Shown here: in pieces, positions 11,998-43,852 of the stretch | Layout of the letters: every line of letters begins with the position of its first letter | Numbering within the stretch: position 1 is the stretch's first letter | Source of the DNA: an uncultured Alphaproteobacteria bacterium | GTDB taxonomy: Bacteria; Pseudomonadota; Alphaproteobacteria; UBA11222 | NCBI GenBank assembly: GCA_947258435.1 | Contig: CAMYID010000007.1 | Span: forward strand, 1-64,000 | Direction of reading: 5' to 3' | Length of the DNA: 64,000 nucleotides | Made by a program: the position numbers and the translations under genes | Notes under the pieces: generated by a model | The model's database searches: none | What the model was told of the DNA's origin: nothing | The model's input: the letters and a program-made list of their open reading frames with translations, nothing else

Positions 11998-11998
11998 T

Positions 11999-12031: not shown

Positions 12032-12046
12032 ATGAGCGCTATGGGG

Positions 12047-26693: not shown

Positions 26694-27707
26694 TCAGCGA
26701 TGCACTATGCCCATGGTCTGATAGACCTCGGCCATAACAGGTGCGGCGATGGCGCGGGCGCGATCCGCACCGCGTGCAAGAACGTCTTCCACATAGCCGG
26801 GGTCCGCTGTCAGCCGTTTCATTTCGGCACCCATGGGGCCCAGTTTTTCAACACAAAGCTCGGTAAGGGCGGATTTGAAGTCGGCAAAATTTCTGCCGCC
26901 GAATTCGCTCAGCACCCTCTCCATGCTGCTGTCGCCGAGGGCGGCGTAAATCCCGACAAGGTTCCGCGCCTCGGGCCGTTCGGCAAGCCCGGCCGGATCA
27001 CCGGGCAAGGGTTCCGGGTCGGTGCGGGCCTTGCGGACTTTCCTGGCGATCAGATCGGCATCATCGGACAAATTGATCCGTGCCAGATCGGACGGGTCGG
27101 ATTTGCTCATCTTCTTGCTGCCGTCTTTGAGCGACATGATCCGCGCGCCTTCCGCCTGCAGCAGGGGTTCAGGCAGGGGAAAGAAGTCCGGCGCATTGAA
27201 ATCATTGTTGAATTTCTGGGCGATGTCGCGTGCCAGCTCAAGATGCTGTGTCTGATCCTCGCCGATCGGCACATGGGTGGCGCGATAGGCCAGAATGTCT
27301 GCGGCCATCAGATTGGGATAAGCATAAAGTCCCACGCTCGCCTTTTCGCGGTTCTTTCCCGCCTTGTCCTTGAACTGGGTCATCCGGTTCAGCCAGCCAA
27401 GCCGCGCCACGCAGTTGAATATCCAGGCGAGCTCGGCATGTGCGGAAACCTGGCTCTGATTGAATATGATCTGCTTTTCCGGATCGATCCCCGCGGCGAT
27501 AAAGGCGGATGCGACCTCCAATGTCGCAGCGCGCAGTTCCGCCGGTTCCTGCCAGATGGTGACGGCATGCAGATCGACGACGCAGTAAAGGCAGTCATAC
27601 TCTTCCTGCAACCGCACGAAATTGCGGATTGCGCCAAGATAATTGCCGAGATGCAGATTGCCGGTGGGTTGAACTCCGGAAAACACCCGAGGGGAATGGG
27701 CGCTCAT
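26694..27707 (-). CDS. trpS: Tryptophan-tRNA ligase
   Basis: A class I aminoacyl-tRNA synthetase with the HIGH-like motif [13 protein letters not shown] and the KMSKS motif exactly as KMSKSD. The frame is open from 27761, but the ATG at 27707 has CAGGAG nearby and gives the family start [16 protein letters not shown] (337 residues). It follows murJ, the usual alphaproteobacterial murJ-trpS pair. Confidence 0.97.
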
Positions 27708-27826
27708 AACTAACTCCTGATCGCTTTGGACACGGCCCTTGAGTGCGGCTTTCAAGTGCATTTTTTGCGGGCGCTGCGGTTATGGCCTGTGGAGCGCAGC
27801 CGGGTCAAGCGATCTGGCTCGCGCGT

Positions 27827-29371
27827 TCAGCCGCGCCCGAATGCGGTGCGCAGTTCGGCAAGCTTGAGCCCGCCGCTCACAATCGCGCAGGCAAAAAAGG
27901 TTGCGCCACCACCGCATACAAGTAGTGCAAGTGCGGCGATGCGGATGGTCTCGGTCGCGCTGTCAAGCCAGGGGGCCAGCAGCCATTCGCCTGCCCATAA
28001 CACGCCCCCAAGACACAGGGTCGCACCGGCGATGCGCGGCAACCGGGCTTTGTTACGGCTGTCCAGCCGCATTTCCCCCTTGCGCCACAGAAGCTGCGCC
28101 AGCAACGCGGCGTTCAGCCAGGCCGCGGCCGAGGTGGCGAGCGCTATTCCGACAAAGCCGATCACAAAGAACAGGGCAATCGACAGGATGATGTTGAGCG
28201 CCACGCCTGCGCTTGCAAATTTCAGCGGGGTCAGCGTGTTCTCGCGCGCGAAGTAGGCAGGCGTCAGAAGCTTGATCGCAATATAGGCGGGCAGGCCGAT
28301 GGCGAAGGCGGCCACCGCCTGCGCGGTTGCAATCGCGTCCTGGGCACTGAATGCGCCGCGGGTGAAAAGGACATCCACGATCGTGCCGGGAATGACCAGC
28401 AGTGCAACGGTCGCCGGCAGGCAAAGCAACATCGCAAATTCAAGGGCACGGTTCTGACTGTCGCGCGCGCCCCGGGCATCGCCGGCGCGCAGCCGGCGCG
28501 ACAGATCGGGCAGCAGGACAATTCCGATCGCTGTGCCGACAACCCCGAGCGGCAGCTGATAAAGCCTGTCCGCGTAATAGAGATAGGAGATGGCGCTGTC
28601 CTGCAGCGAGGCGATAATATTGCCGATAAACAGATTGAGCTGGGCGATGCCGCCGGCAATTGCGCCGGGCACCGCCAGAACCAGCAGCCGTTTCACATCG
28701 TCACTCAGGCGCGGCCATGGCAGGCGCAGGCGAATGCCGCTGCGCCAGGCGGCAAAGGCAACCATCAAAAACTGCGCGACACCGGCTATCGCCACTGCAA
28801 GCGACAGGGTCCTGCCCGGTGTGCCCGTCAGCGGGATGATCACCATCAGCGCGATAATGAAAATGATATTCAGCAGAACAGGCGCAAAAGCCGGGGCGGC
28901 GAATTTGTACAGCGAATTCAGCACGCCGCCATAAAGTGCGACAAGCGATACAAACAGCAGATAGGGGAACATGATGCGCGCGAACAGGACGCTGTCGGCG
29001 AATTTGTCGGGATCGTCTGCAAAACCGGGTGCGAGCGCGTGCATCAGCCACGGCATGCCAAGCTGCGCAAGAACCGTCAGGATAACGAGCGTCAACAACA
29101 GGACGGACAGCACCCGTTCGGCAAACAGCCGCGCCTGCGCTTCGCCTTCGGTTTCAAGCCGGCCGGAAAAAAGCGGAATGAAGGCTGCGTTAAAGGCCCC
29201 CTCCGCAAACAGCCGGCGGAACAGGTTGGGCAGTTTGAAGGCCACGAAGAACGCATCCGCCACCGGTCCCGCGCCGACGATGGCCGCCATCATGATATCG
29301 CGCACGAAACCCAGCACGCGGCTGAGCATCGTGGCCGCACCCACCGTCATGGCCGATCTCAATAAAGACAT
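27827..29371 (-). CDS. murJ: Lipid II flippase MurJ
   Basis: MurJ (MviN) moves lipid-linked peptidoglycan precursors across the inner membrane. The 514 residues form about 14 hydrophobic helices; TMLSRVLGFVRDIMMAAIVGAGPVADAFFVAFKLPN-type sequence at residues 14-50 and RRLFAEGAFNAAFIPLF at 52-68 are diagnostic. It is followed by trpS after 119 bases. The 178-bp region upstream is shared with the divergent MBL-fold gene; I see no clear promoter there. Confidence 0.96.
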   Translation of the reverse strand: MSLLRSAMTVGAATMLSRVLGFVRDIMMAAIVGAGPVADAFFVAFKLPNLFRRLFAEGAFNAAFIPLFSGRLETEGEAQARLFAERVLSVLLLTLVILTVLAQLGMPWLMHALAPGFADDPDKFADSVLFARIMFPYLLFVSLVALYGGVLNSLYKFAAPAFAPVLLNIIFIIALMVIIPLTGTPGRTLSLAVAIAGVAQFLMVAFAAWRSGIRLRLPWPRLSDDVKRLLVLAVPGAIAGGIAQLNLFIGNIIASLQDSAISYLYYADRLYQLPLGVVGTAIGIVLLPDLSRRLRAGDARGARDSQNRALEFAMLLCLPATVALLVIPGTIVDVLFTRGAFSAQDAIATAQAVAAFAIGLPAYIAIKLLTPAYFARENTLTPLKFASAGVALNIILSIALFFVIGFVGIALATSAAAWLNAALLAQLLWRKGEMRLDSRNKARLPRIAGATLCLGGVLWAGEWLLAPWLDSATETIRIAALALLVCGGGATFFACAIVSGGLKLAELRTAFGRG

Positions 29372-29549
29372 GGTTTCTGTTACGCCGAATTCAGGGGGAT
29401 GGGAAGCGGCAAGACTATGTAATTTTGTGCCGACAGGCGGCCAGGGATATGGCAGGGTTTACGCCGTAGAAAATCAACAAGCATGAAATCCGCCGCCTGC
29501 GGGCAATCCTGACAGGGCGCACGGAAATCCGCGAGGGGAGACAGTTCCG

Positions 29550-30440
29550 ATGACCAGCTTGCCGTTCAAGCCATTGCAGTTTGGCGAAATCACCATCGAT
29601 CGCTGTGTGGAATCGGAAGGCGATTTCTTCCCGGCCGCAATGTTTTTCCCAGATTCGACGGAAGAAATGATCGATGCGCAGCGCGACTGGCTGGAGCCGC
29701 ATTTCATGAAGCCAAAGTCAATCGGCGGCGGCATGCTGGGAGGTATTTTTACCTATGTGATCGATACCGGCCAGCACACCATCCTGATCGATACCTGTGT
29801 CGGAAACGACAAGGAACGGACGATGACCCCGAACTGGCATATGAAGCAGACAGGCTGGCTCGACGATCTGCGGGCCATGGGGGTGGCGCCCGAAGCTGTT
29901 GATTTTGTGATGTGTACCCATCTGCATGTGGATCATGTGGGCTGGAATACGCAGCTTGTGGACGGGCGCTGGGTGCCCACTTTCCCCAATGCACGCTATA
30001 TTTTTCACAAGACGGAATATGAGGCCTGGGAAAAGTCACAGGATAACCCGGCAATGGATGGCTGTTTCAGGGATAGCGTGCTGCCTGTTGTCGAAGCGGG
30101 CAATGCGGATCTTGTGACAAGCGATTACGCGATCAATGATGCAATCTGGCTTGAGCCGAGCCCGGGACATACGCCGGGGCATGTGTGCATCAATCTGAAG
30201 GGGGGCGGCAAGCATGCGCTGTTTACCGGCGACAGTTTTCACCATCCGCTGCAGGTTGCCTATCCCGAATGGTCCAGCGCGTTTTGTTCCGACAAACAGA
30301 TGTCGGCGGACACGCGGCACAGGATTGTCGATAAATTATGCGATACCGACAGCTATATGATGGCGGCGCATTTTGCCGCGCCCACCGCGGGGCGGGTTGT
30401 CAGCAACGGCGATCGCTGCAAATTGCGGGTGGATGAATAG
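29550..30440 (+). CDS. Metallo-beta-lactamase-fold hydrolase
   Basis: A 296-residue MBL-fold protein with the metal motif HLHVDH (H124, H126, D128, H129), a later GHTPGHV and FTGDSFHHPLQ. It lacks a signal peptide. Relatives include lactonases and hydrolases of unknown substrate, and nothing nearby identifies one. The ATG has GAGGGGAG upstream. It is convergent with the diguanylate cyclase gene (21-bp gap). Confidence 0.88.
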   Translation: MTSLPFKPLQFGEITIDRCVESEGDFFPAAMFFPDSTEEMIDAQRDWLEPHFMKPKSIGGGMLGGIFTYVIDTGQHTILIDTCVGNDKERTMTPNWHMKQTGWLDDLRAMGVAPEAVDFVMCTHLHVDHVGWNTQLVDGRWVPTFPNARYIFHKTEYEAWEKSQDNPAMDGCFRDSVLPVVEAGNADLVTSDYAINDAIWLEPSPGHTPGHVCINLKGGGKHALFTGDSFHHPLQVAYPEWSSAFCSDKQMSADTRHRIVDKLCDTDSYMMAAHFAAPTAGRVVSNGDRCKLRVDE

Positions 30441-30461
30441 GGCGCGTCTCCTGGCGGCGAC

Positions 30462-31637
30462 CTATTGCTCCATTTCGCTCGCGGCCAGGCGGATATGCGA
30501 AGGGGGGAGGTCGCTGGCCGTCGCGTTTTCGGCAGATATTGGCGCCAGGTTGAGATTGCATTTTCTGTTGGTGCGACCGCTTTCCTTGGCACGGTACATG
30601 GCCGCATCCGCCGCCGCGATAAATCTATCGATGTCGAGAAATTCTTTCGGCCCGTTTTGCGCTATCCCGATAGAAAAGCGCACCCCGGATTCGATGAATT
30701 GCGGCGCCTGGCGGATCATCCTGCGGGCGGTTGTCTGTGCATCGGCAATCGTGGCGGCGGGCAAAATGATGCAGAATTCATCGCCGCCGTAGCGGCAGGC
30801 AATGTCGTTGGCGCGGATTTGGCTGAGCGTCAGTTTACCGACCATCTCCAGTATTTTATCGCCATGCTTGTGGCCTTTGCTGTCATTTACTTCCTTAAAC
30901 CGGTCGATATCGAAATAGATCAGGGAAATCGGTCGCGCATTGCGCTGGGCATCCGAGAGACAGCGGCGCAGATGTTCGTGAAATGCATGGTGATTAGCCA
31001 GCCCCGTCAGCGCATCGTGACGTGACATCTGTTCAAGCTGTTCGGTTCTTTTTGCAACTTCGTTTTCAAGGCTTGAGGCGTAATTTTCGACTTGCTGCTT
31101 GCTGATATGCACTTCATTCAGCATGCTGGCGATATAGGTATCGAAGACAAGGTGAATATCGAACAGGAAAATATTCTGAATGGCTTGCAGTCGGCTCTCC
31201 CGGGTCAGCGCTTTTTCCCGATTGTCGGGAATTGCCTCGACAAAGGGGGTCAGCACCGCCTGTAGCTGGGCAATCGCGGAAATATAAAGTTTCGGGGAAA
31301 CGCCGATATTCTTGTGGACCTTGCCGATCCGCAACCGCTTGTTGACATAGTCTGCGTCGTAATAGCCTTCGAACAGTTCAAGTAAATATCCGCGCATTGC
31401 CTGCGACAGACGCATCAGCGTCTCAGCATCGCCAATCACCAGTTCGACTTCGGGAACGCTTGTCTGATACTGGTAGAATTTATCGACGATCTCGTCGATT
31501 TTCGGGTAGATATAGCTGCGACAATCGGTCAGGGCTTCAACACATTGCTCAGTAATACCGAACAGTATTTTCCGTTCGGTAATTTCACGGTCGGTGATCT
31601 TGAGCTGTCCTGCCAGCGTTTGCCGTGTCATCTGCAT
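30462..31637 (-). CDS. Globin-coupled sensor diguanylate cyclase
   Basis: This 391-residue cytoplasmic protein joins an N-terminal globin-sensor domain (residues about 20-170) to a GGDEF domain by a coiled-coil-like linker (about 175-205). In the globin part RIGKVHKNIGVSPKLYIS places the proximal haem His at about 108. The active site is intact: RYGGDEF at 282-288, and an RxxD inhibitory site (R275-D278) five residues before it, so product inhibition is likely. By analogy with DosC-type proteins it should bind haem, sense O2 (or NO/CO) and make c-di-GMP. It has its own upstream region of 232 bp after the chemoreceptor gene. Confidence 0.93.
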   Translation of the reverse strand: MQMTRQTLAGQLKITDREITERKILFGITEQCVEALTDCRSYIYPKIDEIVDKFYQYQTSVPEVELVIGDAETLMRLSQAMRGYLLELFEGYYDADYVNKRLRIGKVHKNIGVSPKLYISAIAQLQAVLTPFVEAIPDNREKALTRESRLQAIQNIFLFDIHLVFDTYIASMLNEVHISKQQVENYASSLENEVAKRTEQLEQMSRHDALTGLANHHAFHEHLRRCLSDAQRNARPISLIYFDIDRFKEVNDSKGHKHGDKILEMVGKLTLSQIRANDIACRYGGDEFCIILPAATIADAQTTARRMIRQAPQFIESGVRFSIGIAQNGPKEFLDIDRFIAAADAAMYRAKESGRTNRKCNLNLAPISAENATASDLPPSHIRLAASEMEQ

Positions 31638-31661
31638 TTTCTTCGTGTCCTTTGGCGGTCC

Positions 31662-31678
31662 TTCGCGATATGCGCGAA
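31662..31678 (-). promoter_or_regulatory. Inverted repeat before the diguanylate cyclase gene
   Basis: TTCGCG and CGCGAA flank a 5-base spacer, ending about 25 bases before the ATG. It may be an operator or a small leader hairpin. No matching regulator is recognised. Confidence 0.3.
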
Positions 31679-31799
31679 TGAATTACACTTAATGCGGTAT
31701 TCAGTTTATTGTTTTCGACTTTTAAGAGCATATTCTGTCCAAAACTTAAAAAATGGCTTAACAGGCAAAGGGGGTGCCCGGCTGTGCTGCGCGGACGCT

Positions 31800-31831
31800 C
31801 AGACAGAAGCCTGACATGTGGCTTCTGTCTG
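31800..31831 (-). terminator. Hairpin after the chemoreceptor gene
   Basis: CAGACAGAAGCC pairs with GGCTTCTGTCTG (12 bp, 8-nt loop), starting 39 bases past the stop at 31870. It lacks a U-tract on either strand, so it may block exonucleases rather than terminate alone. Confidence 0.45.
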
Positions 31832-31869
31832 GTGGTCCGATCTGTATCATTGCGTGCGCACTTCAGGGG

Positions 31870-33651
31870 CTATGCCGCCGAGCGGAGGTTGTTCACAACC
31901 CGGCTGACGGTTGTACGCAGGGATTCTGACTGTTCGAACAAGGTATCGCCCAGGCTTGTCACCCGGCCGACAGATTCGCCGGTTTGTGCGGTTTTGCCCG
32001 ATACGGTCTGCACATTTTCGGCGACCCGCTGCGTGCCCATGGAGGCATCCTGGATATTACGGGCAATTTCCCGTGTAGCTTCGGATTGTTCATCCACCGC
32101 GCCGCGGACGGAGATTGATACCTCGCTGACCTGTTGCAGGGCTGCCACGATCTTGGTGGAGGCTTCGACGGTTTGCGCAATCACCGCGCGCATGCCGTTG
32201 ACCTGGGTGGAGATTTCATCGGTGGCCTTTGCGGTCTGGTCGGCCAGCGCCTTGACCTCATTCGCCACCACCGCAAAGCCCTTGCCCGCTTCGCCGGCGC
32301 GGGCCGCCTCAATTGTGGCATTGAGCGCCAGAAGATTGGTCTGTGATGCTACTTCACTAATCAGGGCGACAACATCGCCGATCCGTTCGGCGCTGCGCGA
32401 CAGTTCCTCGACCGTTGCGCTTGTCTCGCCGGCATGGCCCACCGCCTGGTCCGTCACGTCATTGGACAGCACAACCTGGCGGCTGATTTCCTCAATCGAG
32501 ACCGACAGTTCTTCCGAGGCGGAGGCGACAGCCTGAATATTGGCCGAGGCTTCCGACGTCGCGCCATTGGCTGCGGAAGCCTGATCGTTCGTTTCGGTCG
32601 CGATGCTGGTCATCAGATCGGTTTCATTGCGCATCTGTGCTGTGGCTTCGCCCAGCGCATCGGCAACTTCCATCACGCTGCGTTCCAGCTCTTGGGCAAG
32701 CTCCGCCATCGTCTGACGCCGCTGCGATTCCGCTTTTTCCTGCAGGGCCTGTTGTTCCTCACGCATCGCCGCGATCCGTGCGATATTGTCCTTGAATACC
32801 TGCAGGGAAGTGACGATCGCACCCAGCTCGTCGCGGCGGGCCAGGCGGTTGATATCCACCGCATCGGTATCTTCGCCCTTGGCCAGGGTCAGGGTTGCCG
32901 CGGCGATATGCGAGATCGAGCGTGTAGTGCCGATCGCCACAGTGAAAGCAACCGCCGCGCTGACTGCGAGCCCGATACCGGCAGCGGCCAGCAGCAGCAT
33001 CACGGTGGTGCCGGCGTCAGCGGCGGCACGTTCCGCGCTGTTCTGGGAATCCGCGACCACGCCGGCCACCATCCCGTCGATGATGCCGATCATCTTTTTG
33101 TAATTTTCATCGAAGGGGGCCACAAAGGAAACCGCGCTTGCAAAATCAATTTCAAGCATCGAGGCAACCCAGTCAATCGCGCCTTTATAGTTGGTCAACT
33201 CTTCCTTCACCGCCTGTGTCTGGGGCAGTTGCGCTTGCGTTGCCAGTTCAGTTTCGAATTTGGTGAGTTCTTCGATCACACCGTCGATGCGGCGCGACAG
33301 CCCGGTGATATCCTCAACCGTTTGGGTGGCATCTGTCTCACCCGCCGATTGAAAGACCATGAGACGGAACAAGGTGCCGTTGATATCGCGGACCTCAGCG
33401 GCAATTTGGTCCAGCTGCTTGATGGCGCCAAAATCCTGCTCCACGATATTATTCGTCAGCGCAACCTGCTCGGACAAGGCATTGCGCGCAAACAGCGACA
33501 GCCCGCAGATCACTGCCACGGCAACCGCTGCGGGCAGCCCGATTTTCAAATAGAATGGCCAGTTGGATAACGACCAGATTCGCTGCAACATGTTTCGCCT
33601 CATAGATTGCGCGTGATTACTCATTCCCGTTTGCCGGAGATGATACGCCAA
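31870..33651 (-). CDS. Methyl-accepting chemotaxis protein, transmembrane
   Basis: A 593-residue chemoreceptor. TM1 lies at about residues 33-51, a helical periplasmic sensor of four-helix-bundle type follows to about 205, then TM2 ([20 protein letters not shown]), a HAMP domain and the signalling domain with the conserved hairpin tip ([19 protein letters not shown], then [13 protein letters not shown]). There is no CheR-docking pentapeptide at the C-terminus. The frame opens at a TTG (33651); ATGs at 33624 and 33603 are possible starts. It follows the TonB receptor/YfiR pair on the same strand but after a strong terminator. Confidence 0.95.
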
Positions 33652-33688
33652 TAATAATTATTAATTAGTTACTGTGTGCCGGTTTTAA

Positions 33689-33720
33689 TAAACAATATTC
33701 ACTATAGTTAATATTGTTTA
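33689..33720 (-). promoter_or_regulatory. Perfect 11-bp inverted repeat upstream of the chemoreceptor
   Basis: TAAACAATATT (33689-33699) and AATATTGTTTA (33710-33720) are exact inverted copies with a 10-base spacer. They sit in an AT-rich island 38-69 bases before the open frame of the chemoreceptor, a good place for a dimeric activator or repressor. I cannot assign the binding protein. Confidence 0.6.
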
Positions 33721-33794
33721 GGATTTGACCGCTTCCAGCCGGGGTGATCTTCCGGACTTGTTTTCTCTTCGAATATTGCTGTTTCCGTTGAGCG

Positions 33795-33834
33795 CAAAAA
33801 CGAAAAGGCCCCGCCGACGGATAGCGGGGCCTTT
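33795..33834 (-). terminator. Rho-independent terminator after the TonB receptor
   Basis: An 11-bp perfect stem, AAAGGCCCCGC with GCGGGGCCTTT, 9-nt loop, is followed on the minus strand by TCGTTTTTG. It begins 40 bases past the receptor stop and separates the receptor operon from the chemoreceptor. Confidence 0.9.
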
Positions 33835-33873
33835 GCAGAGATTGAGTGTTTTATGCGTTCGGGCGCTGTGCGC

Positions 33874-35874
33874 TCAGAAATCCGCACTCAGAGTAAGCAG
33901 CACACGGCGTTCCACCTTCTGTGCCGCATTCTGCCGCTGCTCATCGGTGATGAAGTCCTGCCCCTGCAGTGAGAGGGTCAGCTGATCATCGATTTTATAG
34001 GCAGCCCGGCCGCTGACCGAGATATAATCGCCTACCGGTTCCAGGAAATTGACCGGAGGCGCGGCCTGATTGCGCAGCCGGTCGGAACTGCTGACATAGC
34101 TGCCGAACAGATCGATTTCCCACTTGTCTTTGGCATAGCCGATCTGCGCGTTCACCGTATGCTCGGGATTGGTGTCCTCGAATTCCTTGGCAACGACAAT
34201 CGCCCCGGCCGCATTGCGGTTGCGCAGGCTGTCGTCGATCGTTTCAAACGTATAGTCCGCGCGCCAGTTCCAATGCTGGTTGAATGCGCCGGAAAAGCCG
34301 AGCTCAAGGCCCCACAGCTCCGAATCGCCGATATTGTCGGCCACCACCGCGACACCGGCGGGTGAAACGACGGTATTGACCGCAATGCCTTTTACATCTT
34401 CGGATTCCTGATAGAAGATCGCGGAGCGGAACTTGCCGTTGATCGCGTCGACCGGACGTTCCCAGGCCGCTTCATAGTTGGTGACCACGGTCGAATCGAT
34501 GAAGGGTGAGCCGCCAAGCGCCACGGGACCGCTGACGATCTGAAAACCGAAATCGATCAGGCTCGGCGCGCCGATGCCGCGCGCATAGCTCAGGCGGATT
34601 GTGTTGATGTCATCGGGTTTCCACACAAGGCCACTATTGACGCTGACTTCCAGAAGGTCGGCGTCATACTGGCTGTTTGCAAACGGAATGGGCGCAAGGC
34701 GACCGCCTTCGCGATCGAGTTTCAGATTATCGACCCGCACCGCGTTGGTCAGGCTGAACTTCTCATTGATTGGCCAGTTCCACATGCCGCCCGCCGAGAA
34801 GACGTCGAATGATACCTCTCCGCCCGCGCCACTTGATGTATCCATCGCATTATGCCGGTATTCCGCGGAAAGACGCATATTGTGCTTGCCGCCGATTTTG
34901 AAGACGTCCTGCAATTTCGCGACTGTCACCTGATTGTCGATCTGCAGGCCGGTGCTCGGGATCGTGAGATCCAGGATATTTGTATAGAGATCCGCTTCAA
35001 TCCGGCCGATACCTGTGTCCGACAGCAGTCGTATACGTCCCGACTGGGTCGCATAATCCATTGCTGACAGACGCATGGTCGGCAGGAAGTCCACCGTATC
35101 GAGCGAGCTGCTCGTCAGTTCCACGCCAAGCTGTGTCTTATCCGTCAACTGAGTAAGGCTGTCGATCGAAAGCGAACGGCGTTCGACATCGACAAGGCCG
35201 GCAAGTTCGGCCGCCGGCGCATTTTCAAAATGATCCGCATCGGTCACGCCGCCTGAAACGCGCACGCCCACCTTGTCGTTCAGCTTGAAGCTGCCAACGA
35301 AGCTGCCCTGCTGGTTGGCCTGGGTGCCTGCGGTCGCGCTTGCGCGATCGACATCGTCAAGCAGGGGATTATAGGTCACGATATTGACCACGCCGCCGAC
35401 CGCGTTAAAGCCGAACAATGCGGTATTGGGGCCCTTCACGATTTCGATCTGCCGGATTTCATTCAGCTCGACCGGGATCGAGCTCCACGACACCAGCCCG
35501 AAATGGTCCAGATAAACCTGACGGCCATTGACAAGCACGAGCAACCTGTTGGTGCCGCCCTGATTATAGCCGCGAACCGATATATCCGCTGAACCGAGGC
35601 TGTGCTGCCATACCTCGACGCCACCGCGATATTTCAGCACGCCCGACAAATCGCTTGCTGCTGAGCGGCGAATTTCATCGGCCGTAATGATTTCCATCGT
35701 AACCGGTACGTCGGTGGCGCGCTGCGGAACGCCGATCGCGCTCGTCGTCACCGACTCGCCGAACAGCATTTCGAGCGAGCCGTAATCCATGCTTTGTGCA
35801 CTGGCGTTCTGCGCGGTCATCAATGCCGCGAGGGCCGTTGCGGTGCCTAAGATCTTCCGTTTCCTGTTGATCAT
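33874..35874 (-). CDS. TonB-dependent outer-membrane receptor
   Basis: A signal peptide (MINRKRKILGTATALAALM, cleaved near NASA) is followed by a plug domain (VPVTMEIITADEIRRS, DISVRGYNQGG, LLVLVNGRQVYLDH, IRQIEIVKGPNTALFGFNAVGGVVNIVTYNP) and a beta-barrel ending in a C-terminal Phe. There is no N-terminal secretin/TonB short domain, so it is not a FecA-type transducer. The ligand is unknown. The frame opens at 35913; the ATG at 35874 has AGGA eight bases before it and a clean signal peptide, giving 666 residues. The YfiR-like gene is 45-85 bases upstream and is probably in the same operon. Confidence 0.93.
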   Translation of the reverse strand: MINRKRKILGTATALAALMTAQNASAQSMDYGSLEMLFGESVTTSAIGVPQRATDVPVTMEIITADEIRRSAASDLSGVLKYRGGVEVWQHSLGSADISVRGYNQGGTNRLLVLVNGRQVYLDHFGLVSWSSIPVELNEIRQIEIVKGPNTALFGFNAVGGVVNIVTYNPLLDDVDRASATAGTQANQQGSFVGSFKLNDKVGVRVSGGVTDADHFENAPAAELAGLVDVERRSLSIDSLTQLTDKTQLGVELTSSSLDTVDFLPTMRLSAMDYATQSGRIRLLSDTGIGRIEADLYTNILDLTIPSTGLQIDNQVTVAKLQDVFKIGGKHNMRLSAEYRHNAMDTSSGAGGEVSFDVFSAGGMWNWPINEKFSLTNAVRVDNLKLDREGGRLAPIPFANSQYDADLLEVSVNSGLVWKPDDINTIRLSYARGIGAPSLIDFGFQIVSGPVALGGSPFIDSTVVTNYEAAWERPVDAINGKFRSAIFYQESEDVKGIAVNTVVSPAGVAVVADNIGDSELWGLELGFSGAFNQHWNWRADYTFETIDDSLRNRNAAGAIVVAKEFEDTNPEHTVNAQIGYAKDKWEIDLFGSYVSSSDRLRNQAAPPVNFLEPVGDYISVSGRAAYKIDDQLTLSLQGQDFITDEQRQNAAQKVERRVLLTLSADF

Positions 35875-35958
35875 TTCATCCATCCTGGTAATCGGCAATG
35901 TCGTGGTGCGCAAAGCGCTGTTATCGACATGCGGAAATTGAAAATGTGCCGGGGGCGC

Positions 35959-36510
35959 CTAAAGTTCGGTAATCATCATCCGGAACGCCGAATCGAATGT
36001 GATGTTCAGGGCCGATGCGGCACCGCCATTCACGATGATTTCCACTTTCGGGCTGGAGGCGACGAACATCGCGCATTTGCCCGAATTCACGCAGCCGCGA
36101 TCATCGGTGATTGTCACAAGACCGTTCGCTTGCGATGCGCCCTGGATTGCGCCGTGATGTGCGTCCGTACCGGTGGTCACGAAAATCGCACCGGTTCCTG
36201 CGACCTTGCCCAGATCGCTGACTGGAACCATGACCGGTTGCAATGTCAGGGCGCCGGCTTTGAAACCACCTGCCAGAACATTCTGCGCCGCCTGGGCGTC
36301 GGCCATCGAGGCCGGATTGCCCGGATCATGCACAATTGCCAAATCGACCGTCCCTTTTGGTCCGTTCTGCACAAAACTCAGGGCGCGTGCGATCACCTGA
36401 AAATCTTTCTTGGTGACTTCGGCCTGAGCTGCCTGGGGGATCGCGGTCAGCAAGAGGGGCACTGCCAGCAGTCCCGTACGCCACCGTGTTCCAATAAGTT
36501 TTTTCATCAT
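35959..36510 (-). CDS. YfiR-like (DUF4154) periplasmic protein
   Basis: A 183-residue exported protein with a signal peptide cut after AQA near residue 30. The C-terminal half resembles YfiR/DUF4154: a cysteine-flanked loop (C140, C146), a beta-strand VEIIVNG, and an end with FDSAFRMMITEL. In Pseudomonas, YfiR is a redox-sensitive periplasmic repressor of the YfiN diguanylate cyclase. Genes of this family also occur next to TonB-dependent receptors in other proteobacteria, as here. The two Cys could form a disulfide that controls activity. The start is one of two adjacent ATGs with GGGAG upstream. Confidence 0.75.
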   Translation of the reverse strand: MMKKLIGTRWRTGLLAVPLLLTAIPQAAQAEVTKKDFQVIARALSFVQNGPKGTVDLAIVHDPGNPASMADAQAAQNVLAGGFKAGALTLQPVMVPVSDLGKVAGTGAIFVTTGTDAHHGAIQGASQANGLVTITDDRGCVNSGKCAMFVASSPKVEIIVNGGAASALNITFDSAFRMMITEL

Positions 36511-36723
36511 CTAAGAGTTCTCCCGCAAATATGAGAACAGCAGATAGATAAAACTAATTAATCAACTACTAATCAGCTTTAACTAGATGCTGGCCCATAT
36601 GGAGTGGCCAAATTCCAACAGTTCTTGTGCTGATTACCGGCGCAGCCACAAATTACAGGGGTTTTGCCACGCATAACGCGCATAATCAGGTGTAAATACA
36701 CGCTAAGATAGGTATAATGGTGA

Positions 36724-36739
36724 TTAATAAACCCTTAAC
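36724..36739 (+). promoter_or_regulatory. Perfect CtrA-type binding sequence
   Basis: TTAA, seven bases, then TTAAC: the full consensus for the alphaproteobacterial cell-cycle and motility regulator CtrA. It lies 214 bases upstream of the YfiR-like gene start. That distance is long for direct control of a mapped start, but no promoter has been located within the gap. Confidence 0.5.
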
Positions 36740-36902
36740 GGTAAAGATTCGATGCGGGTGGATGATAAGGATCAGTGCGGAAATTTTTCTACTTAAGCGG
36801 GATTGTGTCCCTGCTGTTGCAGGAAGGTTACAGTTTTGCGGGGAGCGGGCAGCAGATTCCGCCGGCCTCAGGCGCGAAGTGATTCGTCGGCGCGTTCGGC
36901 AT

Positions 36903-36930
36903 CGGGGAAGTAAAATCGGGGAAGTAAAAT
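36903..36930. repeat. 14-bp tandem direct repeat
   Basis: The sequence cggggaagtaaaat occurs twice head to tail at 36903-36916 and 36917-36930, downstream of the SDR gene stop. It may be a replication-slippage duplication or a pair of binding sites. Confidence 0.9.
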
Positions 36931-37034
36931 ATTGAATTTGCCGCTGTCTGAAGCCCGGCCAGCGGCAGCGGAACGCCCGCAGCGGCAGGCGGACAATCCT
37001 TTAAGCGATGCGGGGCGTGGATCTGCTGGTTGCC

Positions 37035-37784
37035 CTAAACATGTTGTCCGCCATTGATGTGCAGTTCGGATCCGGTGACGTAGCTTGCCTGTTCCGAACA
37101 CAGAAAGTAGATCGCCTTTGCAACCTCTTCAGGCGCGCCAAGCCGGCGCAGGGGGATATCCTCGATCAGCTCTTCGGTGCCCGGCGACAGGATCGCGGTT
37201 TCGATTTCACCCGGTGAGATCGCATTGACACGAATGCCCAGCGGCCCGAAATCCGCCGCCATCTCCCGCGTCAGCGCGGCAAGCGCCGCCTTTGACGTCG
37301 AATAAGCGGCGCCTGCAAATGGATGTACCCGGCTGCCGGCGATCGAGGTGACATTCACGATCGCGCCCCTGGCGGCCTGCAATTCCGCGACAAGCCCGCG
37401 CGCCAACATCATTGGTGCAAAGAAATTGACCTGAAAGACGTCGGTCCAGATCCGCGCGCCGGTATCGAGTGTGCCAAGCCGCGATCCGCCCTCGCCTTTG
37501 GGTGAGATCGCCGCATTATTGACAAGCGCGTCAAGCCGACCATCCGTCAGTCTGTGCCGCATTTCCTGAATAGCCAGTGTCAGCCCTTGCGGATCGGACA
37601 AATCCAGCTGCACATGATCTTCGGGCCCGGCTTCCCAGGGGCAATCCTCCGAAAAGGCCGTGCGCGAGCAGGTGATTACCCGCCAGCCCGCGCTTGAAAA
37701 GCGCTTGACCGCAGCATGACCGATGCCCCGGCTTGCGCCCGTCAGGACCAGTGTTTTGCGGTTTTTATCATTGCGGTCGGCCAT
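37035..37784 (-). CDS. SDR-family oxidoreductase
   Basis: A classical short-chain dehydrogenase of 249 residues: TGASRGIG near residues 15-22 for NAD(P) binding, the NNAAIS segment, a catalytic Ser in NVTSIAGS and the YSTSK (YxxxK) motif, and a C-terminal ISPGEIETAILSPG. The substrate cannot be inferred. It is divergent from the antiporter gene and isolated by the 524-bp gap downstream. Confidence 0.93.
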   Translation of the reverse strand: MADRNDKNRKTLVLTGASRGIGHAAVKRFSSAGWRVITCSRTAFSEDCPWEAGPEDHVQLDLSDPQGLTLAIQEMRHRLTDGRLDALVNNAAISPKGEGGSRLGTLDTGARIWTDVFQVNFFAPMMLARGLVAELQAARGAIVNVTSIAGSRVHPFAGAAYSTSKAALAALTREMAADFGPLGIRVNAISPGEIETAILSPGTEELIEDIPLRRLGAPEEVAKAIYFLCSEQASYVTGSELHINGGQHV

Positions 37785-37928
37785 GCGCTAAAACCTAGTG
37801 AATGACGGGCTTGCGCGCCAGCCCTATTATTGCCATCGGTCGCATTTAGCTATCGGCCCACATGACAGGGCAGGCTTGTATCGTATGGGTTTGTCGCGCG
37901 CGTGCGGCGACAGGGTGGAGGAACGACT

Positions 37929-39302
37929 ATGCATGGAAACGCGGATGCGCTGACCGATATTGCATTGGTCTGCCTCATCGCGCTGATCTGCGGGCTGGCC
38001 CTGATCAGGGCCCGCCAGCCCGCGATCGTGGGTTATATCCTTGCAGGTGTTTTGCTGGGGCCGGCGGGGCTTGGCCTTGTCGATAACAGCGGTGCGATCC
38101 GGTTGCTGGCCGAGGTTGGCGTGCTGCTGCTGCTGTTTATTATCGGGCTTGAGCTGAATTTGCAGGAATTCCGCGCCGTTCTGGGTACGGCACTGGCAAC
38201 AGTCGGATTGCAGATACTGGGCTCGGCCGGGTTGATAGCCGCGCTTGGCTGGCTGTTTGACTGGCCGTTGCTGCAGATTGTCGTGCTCAGTTTCGCGATC
38301 ACCCTGTCAAGCACCGCGGTTGCCGTAAAGATGCTGGAGGATGTGGGTGAGGCGGACAGCCTTGTCGGGCGGCTGACCCTTGGTGTGCTGATCGGCCAGG
38401 ATCTGGCGCTTGTGCCGATGCTGATTATCCTCGGCGCGCTGGGGACGGGTGCAACTGCGGGGCCCGAAGGGGCGGCGCATGCGGGGGCGGGTGAACCGGT
38501 CTGGCTGCTTCTGGGCAAGCTGCTGCTGGCGATGGCGGGGCTTGTTGCGCTGATCGCAGTTCTGACCCGACGCGGGCGGATCCGGTTGCCCTTCAGTCGT
38601 ACAATGCTGGGCCCCGATATTGCGACGCTTGCGATCATGGCTTTTTGTTTCGCGCTGGCCAGCCTGTCGGGTCTGGCGGGTCTTTCCCCGGCGCTGGGCG
38701 CCTTTATCGCGGGTATAATTATTGGTAACTCCACAGGGCGGTTGTGGGCGATCCGGCTGTCGGTGCCGATACAGAGCATCCTGATGGTCATATTCTTCCT
38801 GTCGGTGGGCTTGCTGATAGACAGCCGGTTCCTGATCGCGCATTGGGCGCAGATCCTGATGCTGCTGTTCGGTCTCGTGCTTGCCAAGACGGTATTGAAT
38901 ACAGCGATCCTTATGGTGTTGCGCCGCCCCTGGTCGGAAGCTTTTCCCGCCAGCCTGTTCATGGCGCATGTGGGGGAGTTTTCCTTTGTGCTGATCGGTG
39001 CGGGGCTGGCCGCGGGCGCGCTTGACCAGTCAGGCTACAAGCTGGCCCTTACCGTGATTGCGCTCAGCCTTGTGATCAGCCCGCTCTGGTATGTCAGTCT
39101 GCGCAGGTTTCATGATCTCGCCGCCAACCGGATACCGGGACTGCGGCAGGGTCTGTCTGCAATCTATCGGGGTGAATTGAACCTGTTGTCGGCTGGCGGT
39201 CAGCGTGTGATGCGCGCCGGACATCGCCTCCGCACCGGTCGGTGGCGGCGGCGCGGCGCCGGGCGCAAAGGGGGCCCGCCCTCCGCGGCACCCGATGCCT
39301 GA
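37929..39302 (+). CDS. Kef-type (CPA2) cation:proton antiporter
   Basis: The product (457 residues from the ATG at 37929, which has a strong GGAGGAACG site) has about 12 transmembrane helices with the CPA2 patterns RQPAIVGYILAGVLLGPAGLG, GVLLLLFIIGLELN and SSTAVAVKMLEDVGE. Unlike KefB/KefC it ends after the membrane domain, with no TrkA-N or TrkA-C domain, and has a strongly basic Arg/Gly/Pro tail of about 25 residues. The likely cations are K+ or Na+. The open frame extends to 37902, but the later ATG is better placed. Confidence 0.92.
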   Translation: MHGNADALTDIALVCLIALICGLALIRARQPAIVGYILAGVLLGPAGLGLVDNSGAIRLLAEVGVLLLLFIIGLELNLQEFRAVLGTALATVGLQILGSAGLIAALGWLFDWPLLQIVVLSFAITLSSTAVAVKMLEDVGEADSLVGRLTLGVLIGQDLALVPMLIILGALGTGATAGPEGAAHAGAGEPVWLLLGKLLLAMAGLVALIAVLTRRGRIRLPFSRTMLGPDIATLAIMAFCFALASLSGLAGLSPALGAFIAGIIIGNSTGRLWAIRLSVPIQSILMVIFFLSVGLLIDSRFLIAHWAQILMLLFGLVLAKTVLNTAILMVLRRPWSEAFPASLFMAHVGEFSFVLIGAGLAAGALDQSGYKLALTVIALSLVISPLWYVSLRRFHDLAANRIPGLRQGLSAIYRGELNLLSAGGQRVMRAGHRLRTGRWRRRGAGRKGGPPSAAPDA

Positions 39303-39401
39303 GCTGCGTCAAATCGGCCCTTTACAGCCCTGTCGGCTTGTCTTGCACCGCGCCTTGAGGCAGTCTGGCAAAAAACAAAGCGGTTAAGGGAGTGAGGGCC
39401 G

Positions 39402-40721
39402 ATGGGTGAGGCGGGCAGAAAGAAATATGCCGACTATATCGATGTTGAGGAAGGCTGGGTTGATCGCCGGATTTTCTGGGACCAGGAGATTTACGACAGG
39501 GAGCTGGAGCAGGTTTTTGCCCGTTCCTGGCTGTTTGTCGGCCATGAATCGCAGATCGCAAAGCCGGGCGACTTTCTGACGACCTATATGGGGCAGGATG
39601 CGGTGATCCTGTCGCGCCGCAAGGATGGCGGGATCGGCGTTTTTCTCAATAGTTGCCCGCATCGGGGCAACCGCGTTTGCTTTGCCGATGCGGGCAATAC
39701 GCGCCAGTTCGTCTGCAATTATCATGGCTGGTCATTCGGCAATGGCGGTGAGCTGCTCGGCATGCATGAGGAATATGTCTATCGCGAGGCATCGAAGAAC
39801 TTCGACAAGCAGAAGCTCGGTCTCGTGCAGGCGCGGGTTGGCACCTATAAGGGACTGATCTTCGCGACCTTTGACCCTGATGCGCCCGAACTGCTCGACT
39901 ATATGGGAGATTTTGCCTGGTATCTCGACATGCTCGTCGATGCCGATGAAGGGGGCACCGAGGTGATCGGCGGTGCGGTTCGCAATGTGCTCAACTGCAA
40001 CTGGAAATTCCCGGCGGAAAATTTTCACGGCGATGCCTATCATGTCGGCTGGAACCATCTGGCGGGATCGATGGCGTTTGGCGGATCGGGTTTCAAGGCG
40101 GATCAGAACAGCTCGTTCCAGATGAACAGCAACGGTCATGGCTGGGAAACCGCGATGGGCGGCGGCGCCATGATCACCGCCCATAATAGCGGGCCGGTGC
40201 TTGAGTATGTGCTGGAGAATCTGCCCAATATTGAAAAGCGGCTGGGCAAGGAACGGGCTGAAATCTATGGCGCGATCTCGTCTGTGACGATGTTCCCGAA
40301 CTTTTCCTTCCTGCCCGGGCTGAATGCGATCCGCGTCTGGCAGCCCAAGGGGCCGGCCAAAACCGAAATCTGGGCCTGGGTGCTGGTGAACAAGAACGCA
40401 CCCGATACCGTCAAGCAGGATATGCGGCGCGGTGTGATGCGGACATTTTCACCCGGCGGCATGCTTGAAATGGATGACGGAGAGAATTGGGAGAATGCCA
40501 CCCTGTCCAATGCCGGCGTCGTGACCCGGCGGCAAAAGTTGTATTACGGCATGAATCTGAATGCTCCCGAAGGCCCCGACTATCTGCCCGGCAATGTGCG
40601 GATGGGCCAGATCGGCGATAATAATCAGCTGGCGATGTATCAGCGCTGGGCCGATCTGATGGACGCGCCGGGCTGGGGCGATGTGCCCGACCGGCGGCAG
40701 GCGAAAAAGGCGGCGGAGTAG
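39402..40721 (+). CDS. Aromatic-ring-hydroxylating dioxygenase, alpha subunit
   Basis: A 439-residue Rieske non-haem iron oxygenase. The Rieske ligands are C85, H87, C105 and H108 (CPHRGN and CNYHGW). The catalytic domain has D211, H214 and H219 in NFHGDAYHVGWNH, plus a third iron ligand in the EMDDGENW segment (D358/D359), the arrangement of naphthalene/biphenyl-type dioxygenases. GGGAGTGAGG precedes the ATG. The beta subunit follows 5 bases later. No ferredoxin, reductase, diol dehydrogenase or extradiol dioxygenase lies adjacent, so the electron donors must be encoded elsewhere; the substrate is unknown. Confidence 0.95.
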   Translation: MGEAGRKKYADYIDVEEGWVDRRIFWDQEIYDRELEQVFARSWLFVGHESQIAKPGDFLTTYMGQDAVILSRRKDGGIGVFLNSCPHRGNRVCFADAGNTRQFVCNYHGWSFGNGGELLGMHEEYVYREASKNFDKQKLGLVQARVGTYKGLIFATFDPDAPELLDYMGDFAWYLDMLVDADEGGTEVIGGAVRNVLNCNWKFPAENFHGDAYHVGWNHLAGSMAFGGSGFKADQNSSFQMNSNGHGWETAMGGGAMITAHNSGPVLEYVLENLPNIEKRLGKERAEIYGAISSVTMFPNFSFLPGLNAIRVWQPKGPAKTEIWAWVLVNKNAPDTVKQDMRRGVMRTFSPGGMLEMDDGENWENATLSNAGVVTRRQKLYYGMNLNAPEGPDYLPGNVRMGQIGDNNQLAMYQRWADLMDAPGWGDVPDRRQAKKAAE

Positions 40722-40726
40722 ACGCG

Positions 40727-41272
40727 ATGACCATCACCGATAGCCGGCAGCCCGCGGCAGCAGGTGCGCCTGATGCAGATCTGATCCGCGAGGTGGAGCA
40801 GTTCCTCTATCGCGAGGCGCGGATCCTTGATGCGGAGGAGCTTGAAGAATGGCTCACAATGCTGACCGATGATATCCATTACTGGATGCCCTCGATTCAG
40901 AACCGCTACCGCAAGGATAAGCAGCCCGCCTTCTCCGAGGAAACGGTAGCGCTGTTTGAAGAGGATATGGACAGCTTGAAGATCCGTGTACGGCGTTTTT
41001 ATACAGGCTTTGCCTGGCCCGAGGATCCGCCGACCCGGCATTGCCATATTATCACCAACATCGAAGTGGCGCTGACCGATAATCCGGATGAATATCGTGT
41101 CTATTCGGCTTTTCTCAATCACCGTAGCCGGCTGGAGAAGGACGAGGACTGGATGGTCGGCCGGCGCGAGGATCTGTTGCGCCGCGTGGGGGGGGAGCTG
41201 AAGCTCGCCCGCCGCAAGATCGTGACCACGCAAAGCACGGTGCTTGCCAAGAATTTAAGCGCTTTTCTCTGA
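40727..41272 (+). CDS. Aromatic-ring-hydroxylating dioxygenase, beta subunit
   Basis: The 181-residue small subunit of the same oxygenase: EVEQFLYREARILDAEELEEWL at the start, DDIHYWMP, RHCHIITNIEV and a C-terminal DLLRRVGGELKLARRKIV, all standard for the beta-subunit family that assembles as alpha3beta3. The gene begins 5 bases after the alpha stop. It ends 52 bases from the convergent COG2187-type gene; no terminator is seen between them. Confidence 0.95.
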   Translation: MTITDSRQPAAAGAPDADLIREVEQFLYREARILDAEELEEWLTMLTDDIHYWMPSIQNRYRKDKQPAFSEETVALFEEDMDSLKIRVRRFYTGFAWPEDPPTRHCHIITNIEVALTDNPDEYRVYSAFLNHRSRLEKDEDWMVGRREDLLRRVGGELKLARRKIVTTQSTVLAKNLSAFL

Positions 41273-41324
41273 TCGGGCGCGGGCCTGCTGCGGGTCTCAT
41301 GCGGGCCTCATGGTTGTCGTGAAT

Positions 41325-42899
41325 CTATACGGCGTTCGGGATCCGGATTGCGGTGCGCGCCCGGGCCAGCGTTTCCTCTGGCGTGCCGGCGGCGCTGATC
41401 TTGTGCCAGGCGATTTCCGCAAGCGGGTAGTTCTGCTGCTGGCGTACCACGCGCGCATCGGCGTCTGACGCATCGCCGCGCCGGGCATCGACCCGTGCGC
41501 TCAGCGTTTCTTCAGCGGCCTCAAGCCATAGCCCGTCGAAGCGCGCCCCCTCTTGCGCCGCAATCTGTTCCAGTGCCTGCCGCTCTTCAGGGCGTGCATG
41601 CACGGCATCTGCGATCACGCTGTGTCCGGCGCGCAATGCGATGCGCGCGCGGTGCCGCATGGTGTCATAGACCTCTTCGCCCGCCGCCTGGCTATAGGCT
41701 TCAGCGGGTAGTCTCTCGGTCAGCGCCTGGCCCCGGAGCTGTTTGCGGATTTCGTCGCTGCGCAGCAGCACCGCACCGGGTGCCGCGCCGATCGCAGGGG
41801 CAAGCGCGCGCGCCAGAACCGATTTGCCGCTGCCCGACAGCCCACCCACCGCGACAAGCTGCACAGGCGCGGGTGTCAGAAATTGTCCGGCAAGCGCGAA
41901 ATAGGCGCGCGCGGTTTCCGGCAGCGCGGCATTTTCGGGCTGCGACCGGCTGGTCCGGGCCAGCACAAAAGCGCGCACCCCCGCGCGGCAGGACAGAAAC
42001 AGCGGCAGCAGCGCAAGCCCGGCAAGCGTCGCCGCGCAGGCAGAAGGCGTCAGGCTGACAAGATAACGGTTGAGGCAGGCATTGGCATGCCCGTAAAGCT
42101 CGCGATGCCAAAGGTCCATCAGCAGAAAACCAAGATCGTAAAGCAGGTCGATCCGTGCGATCGGGTCGCTGAATTCGATACAGTCAAACGGTGTGGGCAC
42201 CCCGTCCAGGCAGCAGATATTGCCCAGATGCAGATCCCCGTGGCAGTGCCGCACCCAACCCGCCCGCCGCCGCTCCTCGAGGATCGGTGCAAGCCTGTCG
42301 AGCATAGCCTTGCTGGCCGTACGCAGCCCGTCAATTTCAGCAAGCGGGAAGATCGTGCCGGCAAAATCACGATATTGCGCGTCATTGAGCGCAAGCGTGC
42401 GCGCGAAATTTTCCGCCCCGCCCCAATCGGGTTCAGGGGGTAACGCCTCGTGGAAGCGGGCGATGTCGGTGGCCAGCCGTTCAATGGTGGCAGTCGTCAG
42501 CACACCGCGATCGGCCTGCGCGTCAAGCATTCGGGTACGCTCAAAGCGGCGCATCCTGACGACCCATTCAATCGGTGTGCCCTCGCCATCAAGCGAGACG
42601 GCGCCCCCCGCATCGCGCGTTACAGGCAGGATGTCGAGATAAAGCGCGGGCGCGGTGCGCCGGTTAAGGGCAAGCTCCCGCTCGCAATCGCGTTGCCGCA
42701 GTTGCACGGTGCTGAAATCGAGGAAATTCAGCTTTATCGGCTTGCGCAGCTTGTAGGCATATTCTCCCGCAAGAAACAGTGCGGAGATTGAGGTGTCGAT
42801 CCGTTCGACATTTTCGCCCGCAAGCCCGTAGGTCGCCGGATCCGCGAGCAGATCGTAACTGGCCTGCCAGTCCCCGTCCGTCGGTATATCAGGCGGCAT
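41325..42899 (-). CDS. COG2187/COG0645-type two-domain kinase-like protein
   Basis: The first 330 residues are an aminoglycoside-phosphotransferase-like domain (YKLRKPIKLNFLDF with a probable ATP Lys, then RHCHGDLHLGNICCLDG with the HGDLHxxN catalytic loop and DCIEFSDPIARID). The last 170 residues are a P-loop kinase domain with Walker A GGLSGSGKS. The fusion is a known but uncharacterised bacterial architecture. It could phosphorylate a small molecule, but no substrate is known. The gene overlaps nothing and starts 11 bases past the end of the cation-efflux gene. Confidence 0.88.
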   Translation of the reverse strand: MPPDIPTDGDWQASYDLLADPATYGLAGENVERIDTSISALFLAGEYAYKLRKPIKLNFLDFSTVQLRQRDCERELALNRRTAPALYLDILPVTRDAGGAVSLDGEGTPIEWVVRMRRFERTRMLDAQADRGVLTTATIERLATDIARFHEALPPEPDWGGAENFARTLALNDAQYRDFAGTIFPLAEIDGLRTASKAMLDRLAPILEERRRAGWVRHCHGDLHLGNICCLDGVPTPFDCIEFSDPIARIDLLYDLGFLLMDLWHRELYGHANACLNRYLVSLTPSACAATLAGLALLPLFLSCRAGVRAFVLARTSRSQPENAALPETARAYFALAGQFLTPAPVQLVAVGGLSGSGKSVLARALAPAIGAAPGAVLLRSDEIRKQLRGQALTERLPAEAYSQAAGEEVYDTMRHRARIALRAGHSVIADAVHARPEERQALEQIAAQEGARFDGLWLEAAEETLSARVDARRGDASDADARVVRQQQNYPLAEIAWHKISAAGTPEETLARARTAIRIPNAV

Positions 42900-42910
42900 G
42901 CCGATTGCCG

Positions 42911-43852
42911 TCAGTCCGGAAAAGCCGGGTCTTTTTCAAACCCGACCGGGTCCTGATGAATGATAACTTCCGCGCCCGGAAATGCGGCCTTGACTTCCTC
43001 CTCAACCTCATCGGCGATTTCATGGGCCCGGTAAAGCGGCAGATCGGCTTTCATCTCCACATGTAGCTGGATGAAGGGGGTAATTCCCGACAAGCGCGAG
43101 CGGACGTCGTGTATCGAATGAACCTCGGAATGGGACAGCGCGATCTCGCGCAGTTTTTCGCGATCTTCTTCAGGAAGTTCACGGTCCATGATCTGATCAA
43201 GCGCCTGCCGGAAGATGCGGATGGCGCTCCACCCGATCCAGCCCGCGATCAACAGCGCAATCAGCGGGTCGGCAATTGCAATGCCATGGAAGCCGCTCAG
43301 GACAAGGCCGACAATAACCCCGATATTGAGCAGCAGATCGCTGCCGTAATGTATGGAATCGGCGCTGATGGCAAGCGAACCGGTTCGCCGCGCCACATAG
43401 CGCTGCAGACCGACAAGGCCGATCGTCAGCACAATTGCGAAAACGGTAACCGCGATCCCGATCTCACTCTGTGTCACCGGTTCGGGGTCGAGCATGCGGC
43501 GCGTCGACTCAAAGGCAAGGAATGCGGCTGAACCGCCGATAAAGGCCGCCTGGCCAAGTGCGGCTACCGCTTCCGCCTTCCCATGACCGAAACGGTGCTC
43601 GTCATCGGCGGGTTGCAGCGAATGCCGCACCGCGATGAAGTTCAGGATCGAGGCGCCGCCATCCAGGATTGAATCGATCAGGGTAGCCAGGATCACCGCC
43701 GACCCGGTGGCAAGCAGCGCCCCGGCTTTTGTGGCAACTAAAATGGCCGCGACCAGAATCGATGCCATGGCCGCAATGCGCATCCATCGCCCCGCCGCCG
43801 CGCCATGCAAACGGGAAATTTCGTGGATTGTTTCGGTGTCCGATAAGGGCAT
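42911..43852 (-). CDS. Cation diffusion facilitator (FieF-like)
   Basis: The protein has six transmembrane helices and a C-terminal cytoplasmic domain (AHEIADEVEEEVKAAFPGAEVIIHQDP), typical of CDF divalent-metal/proton antiporters. Metal-site motifs are visible as DSILD in TM2 and HYGSD in TM5, the FieF-type arrangement for Fe/Zn. The open frame begins at 44023, but this includes a long non-conserved stretch; the ATG at 43852 (MPLSDTETIHEI) gives the normal 313 residues. It lies 143 bases downstream of pdxH. Confidence 0.92.
   Translation of the reverse strand: MPLSDTETIHEISRLHGAAAGRWMRIAAMASILVAAILVATKAGALLATGSAVILATLIDSILDGGASILNFIAVRHSLQPADDEHRFGHGKAEAVAALGQAAFIGGSAAFLAFESTRRMLDPEPVTQSEIGIAVTVFAIVLTIGLVGLQRYVARRTGSLAISADSIHYGSDLLLNIGVIVGLVLSGFHGIAIADPLIALLIAGWIGWSAIRIFRQALDQIMDRELPEEDREKLREIALSHSEVHSIHDVRSRLSGITPFIQLHVEMKADLPLYRAHEIADEVEEEVKAAFPGAEVIIHQDPVGFEKDPAFPD

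Follow-up and report, generated by a model that had tools for sequence, protein, structure and literature searches.

A 64,000-nucleotide stretch from an uncultured member of the Alphaproteobacteria (contig CAMYID010000007.1 of assembly GCA_947258435.1, here called the window) carries adjoining genes for a YfiR-like secreted protein, a TonB-type outer-membrane receptor and a chemoreceptor, or methyl-accepting chemotaxis protein (MCP). Comparison of gene neighbourhoods shows that these three genes make up a co-inherited unit which recurs in several alphaproteobacterial groups. On these sequence comparisons we consider it somewhat probable (about 0.6) that the three proteins form an envelope relay, with the receptor passing its state to the YfiR-like adaptor, the adaptor to the chemoreceptor, and the chemoreceptor to chemotaxis. 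A ligand would bind the outer-membrane receptor and so alter the grip that its conserved N-terminus, in the periplasm, has on the YfiR-like protein. The latter, either free or carrying ligand, would then dock on the MCP at the membrane-distal tip of its four-helix domain and set CheA activity, and the cell would swim up or down a gradient of the compound bound at its surface. We infer the docking, the direction of the signal, the ligand and the mode of the adaptor (sequestration or ligand carriage). To carry such a signal onward, the genome encodes CheA, three flagellins and eight MCPs. A wider proposal is more tentative, and we would not yet bet on it: TonB-type receptors may act as chemotaxis sensors whose state is relayed by YfiR-fold adaptors to a family of four-helix domains that read secreted partner proteins with their conserved tip, a plug-and-play module joined to chemoreceptors as well as to histidine kinases.

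In the window the unit belongs to a group of four signalling genes which occupy positions 30462-36510 of the minus strand, in the order YfiR-like protein, TonB-type receptor, chemoreceptor and protoglobin-GGDEF protein, with intergenic gaps of 46, 223 and 233 bp. The original prediction, made from the letters of the window, had placed four minus-strand signalling genes within 6 kb; the open reading frames are found where it put them, and Pfam recognises their domains. A sibling of the genus (L005, contig CALAQW010000162.1 of a metagenome-assembled genome) has all four, with order and flanks unchanged, and the three-gene core is found in other families. Restriction to a single genome, which the prediction had named as grounds for abandoning it, is thus not what is seen.

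How widely does the unit recur? In a draw of 385 genomes across the class, 12 carried YfiR-like hits, 15 altogether, and 30 of the 82 genomes in the order of G350 had a hit. Only six genomes of the window's own family and order were searchable, three of them with a match. A draw across the phylum found the YfiR-like profile in 6 of 398 genomes, all from the window's class, and absence from the remainder is weak evidence because only a few candidates in each genome are scored at this initial stage. Together with the window and L005, the class, order and phylum searches yielded 53 loci. Within the class draw, a TonB receptor adjoins 13 of the 15 YfiR-like genes, and at seven of these 13 pairs the gene immediately to one side encodes an MCP, on the same strand in six cases. 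Per-genome MCP counts, at one gene per kb, lead one to expect 0.10 adjacent MCPs rather than seven (Poisson-binomial tail 1e-12, relatedness ignored), and the seven pairs span four families (f1, f52, f160 and f84). Over all loci, the YfiR-TonB pair is found at 45 of 53, and at 31 of these 45 a same-strand MCP with the sensor domain described below stands beside it; 12 of the 31 lie outside the set used to build the domain profile, and one (L085) is cut by a contig end before the MCP domain. The other eight loci have a YfiR-like gene without a recognised TonB partner (L029, L030, L080, L081, L082, L101, L102 and L106, with L102 at a contig end). The order of the genes is reshuffled among loci, as YfiR-TonB-MCP, TonB-YfiR-MCP or MCP-YfiR-TonB. 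At L087 and L088 the pair is doubled ahead of a single MCP, and in the MCP-YfiR-TonB row of L025 an SBP_bac_5 gene (11533-13224) overlaps the end of the receptor gene. Plasmid searches with two YfiR-like proteins gave a single match, on a plasmid of Roseomonas haemaphysalidis (L137, NZ_CP061178.1), where the YfiR-like gene (annotated hypothetical) and a TonB receptor gene lie between genes for EAL and PAS proteins; plasmid searches with two MCP sensor domains returned no match.

The chemoreceptor of the window (31870..33651, minus strand, 593 residues, likely start 33591) belongs to the MCPs by its Pfam MCPsignal score of 102.1 bits, for a cut-off of 34.6, and this cytoplasmic signalling domain covers residues 409-556 (31984..32427). 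A HAMP domain scores 18.5 bits, under its cut-off. The periplasmic part of a chemoreceptor is usually fast-changing. The MCPs of the unit have this part in common, and 19 of them were aligned (alignment A3). In the window, a first transmembrane helix, the sensor domain and a second transmembrane helix span 32908..33591, and AlphaFold predicts a four-helix bundle between the two membrane helices (pLDDT, the predicted local distance difference test, 80.8). The sensor domain is most conserved in the stretch of residues 140-165 (33097..33174), with a mean of 2.83 bits vs 1.88-2.37 for the remaining segments of A3. The predicted model has this stretch where helix 3 turns into helix 4; judged by the topology, this turn would be the membrane-distal tip. 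The best named Foldseek matches are MCP four-helix domains, those of Vc1313, Tar, Tsr and PcaY, with a best E of 2.8e-3 and none at or below 0.001. Among solved structures, sequence matches of the domain were helical or coiled-coil proteins only (best E 5.8e-5, an engineered helical mimic) and were set aside as chance likeness. A literature search with the seven-residue string of the tip motif gave no match. This sensor domain is also carried by another MCP of the window genome (L117, G000:C17:42025-42708), which has a copy in the sibling (L118, G001:C186); no YfiR-like or other secreted partner was recognised near either, and this second MCP may share the YfiR-like protein of the window.

The sensor domain is also found outside the chemoreceptors of the unit. 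When 35 genomes were scanned with A3, all 26 hits of at least 200 bits lay within 4.5 kb of a YfiR-like gene, a result that is partly circular because 19 such MCPs had built the alignment. The hits between 115 and 200 bits give a less circular test: four of these 17 stand beside YfiR-like genes, and all four are histidine kinases (L080, L081, L082 and L089). A fifth kinase with the domain, at 163 bits, sits in a YfiR-TonB-kinase row (L100). None of these five YfiR-adjacent kinases was in the profile seed, and they score 163-185 bits; at L080, L081 and L082 no TonB receptor was recognised. In the 82 genomes of the one order, with cut-offs of E 1e-8 for the YfiR-like profile and 1e-20 for the sensor domain, 27 genomes have both, three the YfiR-like protein only, four the domain only and 48 neither. 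At E 1e-10 the domain occurs in 18 of the 385 genomes of the class draw, several of them without a YfiR-like hit.

At six loci (L119, L120, L125, L136, L144 and L145) an SBP_bac_5 gene lies directly upstream of a kinase carrying the domain, and to judge from the sequences these are probably binding-protein-dependent kinases; those of L119 and L125 show GAF domains. Among the four genomes with the domain only, this SBP_bac_5-kinase version is present in two (G445 and G449) and absent from the other two (G427 and G442). More distant copies of the domain, on the MCPs of L128 and L134, are accompanied by small secreted sCache_2 proteins. No SBP_bac_5 gene was found upstream at L141, L142 and L143, the first two of which are near contig ends; the stretch of L124 is too short to judge. 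In the open reading frame listings no such secreted partner was recognised at L117, L118, L121, L122, L123, L126 and L140. At L121 a protoglobin-MCP gene (6333-7955) adjoins the sensor-domain MCP, an echo of the globin neighbour in the window. Because the domain is carried by kinases beside YfiR-like genes and its distant copies stand beside SBP_bac_5 and sCache_2 genes, its probable role is to read partner proteins in the periplasm. Some members of the domain family thus adjoin genes for secreted proteins, the YfiR-like protein being one kind.

The proposed adaptor (35959..36510, minus strand) is a secreted periplasmic protein of 183 residues. Its DUF4154 score (PF13689, YfiR/HmsC-like) is 21.8 bits, under the Pfam cut-off of 24.9, and it is the single DUF4154 match in the window genome; its counterpart in the sister genus, 62% identical, passes the cut-off at 30.1 bits. 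A search of solved structures with its profile found no significant relative by sequence (best E 0.22). The AlphaFold model (pLDDT 88.3) places it within the YfiR fold: Pseudomonas aeruginosa YfiR (4zhu) superimposes with Z 15.3 and a root-mean-square deviation of 2.6 over 140 aligned residues, and YfiR chains reach TM-scores of 0.63/0.77. Solute-binding-protein domains fit the model as well or better (3lkv, Z 16.8; 3lft, Z 16.0), and Rhodothermus 5z6v is also among the nearest solved folds. According to the YfiR report, YfiR itself likewise resembles solute-binding proteins: binding proteins have two lobes, and the YfiR fold matches one of these halves (PMC4655355). Cys146 is present in 16 of 16 relatives and Cys140 in 13 of 16, and the two are a candidate counterpart of the Cys145-Cys152 disulfide of YfiR. 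The second pair of YfiR, Cys71-Cys110, has no counterpart in the window protein, which holds two cysteines in total, and for this reason the protein is named YfiR-like rather than YfiR. Its C-terminal part is slightly more conserved (2.59 vs 2.26 bits); the same report describes a conserved C-terminal face of YfiR that binds YfiB and probably YfiN too (PMC4655355). In a tree of the YfiR-like proteins the four kinase-linked members form one clade (100/99) and the MCP-linked ones fall in several places. With 17 of 47 inner branches open and long branches meeting, no direction is claimed for the switch of output; the tree does not include loci that gave only short matches, such as L075 and L100.

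The receptor (33874..35913, minus strand) has the Plug (69.9) and TonB barrel (99.9) families of Pfam, and a sequence search of solved structures matched it to the plug regions of Cir and BtuB. An alignment of 47 receptors shows that the mature proteins begin with a near-invariant stretch before the plug, with a TonB-box-like core. In the window this signature, of the YGxLExLFGEPVTTSATGKPQR type, lies at 35719..35796, and it is here that the YfiR-like protein might be held. Pfam reported on the receptor no STN domain, the N-terminal signalling domain of FecA-type transducers; the reading of the letters alone had likewise seen no extra N-terminal signalling domain.

Several observations weigh against the relay. 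An intrinsic terminator (33804..33834, minus strand; 12 pairs, 8 of them G-C) separates the receptor and chemoreceptor genes; it had been picked out beforehand as strong, and in the stretch that was scanned neither strand has a stronger one. A similar hairpin stands at the same position in L005, and since the terminator separates the two genes in both, receptor and MCP may be on separate transcripts there. Upstream of MCPs outside the genus, clear hairpins were seen at few loci only. That check gives no evidence on operon structure, as it covered the 160 bases ahead of the longest frame and failed to pick up the terminator of the window itself. Next, 14 of the 45 pairs lack this MCP: two have another MCP (L006 and L026), two a kinase carrying the sensor domain (L089, with an additional upstream MCP without it, and L100), two another kinase (L027 and L028), two a GGDEF-EAL protein without the domain (L023 and L031), and six something else or nothing recognised (L024, L033, L090, L099, L104 and L105, with L033 and L105 at contig ends). 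In the sister genus (G005, L006) the pair is kept, the contig ends after the receptor, the MCP beside it is divergent from the pair and without the domain, and the draft genome has no match to it at all. Thirteen of the 17 hits of 115-200 bits, on MCPs or kinases, have no YfiR-like gene nearby, among them the window genome's second MCP and the copy of it in the sibling. Finally, most loci come from one family (f52), and the Fisher and adjacency P values ignore phylogeny.

Could the genes simply travel together for the sake of one nutrient? The receptor and the YfiR-like protein would then be an uptake or envelope pair, the chemoreceptor would sense the same compound independently, and no relay would exist. 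Transport and chemotaxis genes for one compound are known to lie together, and such an arrangement would accord with the terminator that parts the receptor and MCP genes in this genus, with the transporter-type SBP_bac_5 proteins next to related domains, and with the likeness of the sensor domain to MCP domains solved with bound small molecules (Vc1313 and PcaY). We nevertheless find it unlikely. The same domain is carried by YfiR-adjacent kinases where no TonB receptor was recognised, which ties it to YfiR rather than to transport, and no inner-membrane transporter recurs at the loci among the seven kinds of domain that the profiles covered. Conservation, moreover, peaks at the predicted tip, whereas one would look for a pocket for small molecules along the helices. 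A relay of another type seems a little less improbable, though still on the doubtful side: the receptor would import the ligand, and the YfiR-like protein would bind it and present it to the chemoreceptor as solute-binding proteins do. The solute-binding proteins among the nearest folds speak for such a carrier, as do the SBP_bac_5 and sCache_2 genes beside related sensor domains, but the YfiR fold is just one half of a two-lobed binding protein. For the adaptor of the receptor-driven relay there are two candidate modes, each with an analogy on its side. Solute-binding proteins carry ligand to the chemoreceptors Tar and Trg, and the SBP and sCache neighbours favour carriage; in the YfiB-YfiR model YfiR is sequestered (PMC4655355), a precedent that favours sequestration.

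The original prediction had gone further and suggested that the receptor and YfiR-like protein could also control cyclic di-GMP (c-di-GMP), through the adjoining globin cyclase. This protein (30462..31637, minus strand) scores 113.5 bits for Protoglobin and 132.8 for GGDEF, and its GGDEF motif is intact in translation, so that by domain content it is a globin-coupled diguanylate cyclase. The sibling of the genus has the four genes in unchanged order, a cyclase is under the control of YfiR in Pseudomonas (PMC4655355), and elsewhere two pairs adjoin GGDEF-EAL proteins (L023 and L031). However, Protoglobin and GGDEF are the only domains seen in the cyclase, which has no predicted periplasmic part, and among the 53 loci a protoglobin stands beside YfiR only in the window and L005. 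The gene is thus probably a neighbour rather than a part of the unit, and the full wiring, c-di-GMP included, is very improbable. What stands is its other limb, from receptor through YfiR-like protein to chemotaxis, which is well supported by comparative genomics: recurrence in several families, reshuffled gene orders, a common sensor domain, and the presence of that domain on YfiR-adjacent kinases. The c-di-GMP limb is unsupported at this locus. No histidine-kinase domain was found in positions 27001-43000 of the window, in line with the first reading of the letters, and the other neighbours recognised by Pfam are a short-chain dehydrogenase/reductase (SDR), a lactamase-fold protein and an Na/H exchanger.

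The inputs of chemoreceptors, as now understood, are small molecules or binding proteins already present in the periplasm. If the relay is true, cells could steer by surface binding toward large or scarce compounds such as siderophores, haem, B12-like cofactors or glycans. The tip motif and the N-terminal signature of the receptor would serve as sequence handles with which such relays could be found and partners assigned to orphan chemoreceptors. Literature searches by term, whose coverage left out most subscription journals and bioRxiv, found no description of a relay of YfiR, TonB receptor and chemoreceptor, which agrees with the initial remark that this wiring was not one recognised as described. 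The parts are of known kinds, and it is their wiring that appears to be new.

Established systems of four kinds come closest. As in YfiBNR of P. aeruginosa, a YfiR-fold periplasmic protein would connect a component of the outer membrane with a signalling protein of the inner one. The outer-membrane part is here a TonB-type receptor instead of an OmpA-like lipoprotein, the output a chemoreceptor or kinase instead of a PAS/GGDEF cyclase, and neither a YfiN-type membrane cyclase nor an OmpA-like YfiB is among the scanned neighbours, so the locus is not a YfiBNR system. The globin-coupled diguanylate cyclases are represented by the neighbouring gene, outside the proposed unit. The TonB-dependent transducers, FecA-FecR and FpvA, signal through an STN domain to transcription. 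They share with the unit a TonB-type outer-membrane receptor as signal input, but no STN was found here and no FecR or extracytoplasmic function (ECF) sigma factor is among the scanned neighbours, and the proposed output is chemotaxis rather than transcription. The binding-protein-dependent chemoreceptors, Tar with MalE and Trg with RbsB, likewise have a four-helix MCP sensor domain, and in the present unit we propose that a periplasmic protein reads it; here, however, that protein has the YfiR fold and an outer-membrane receptor as its partner.

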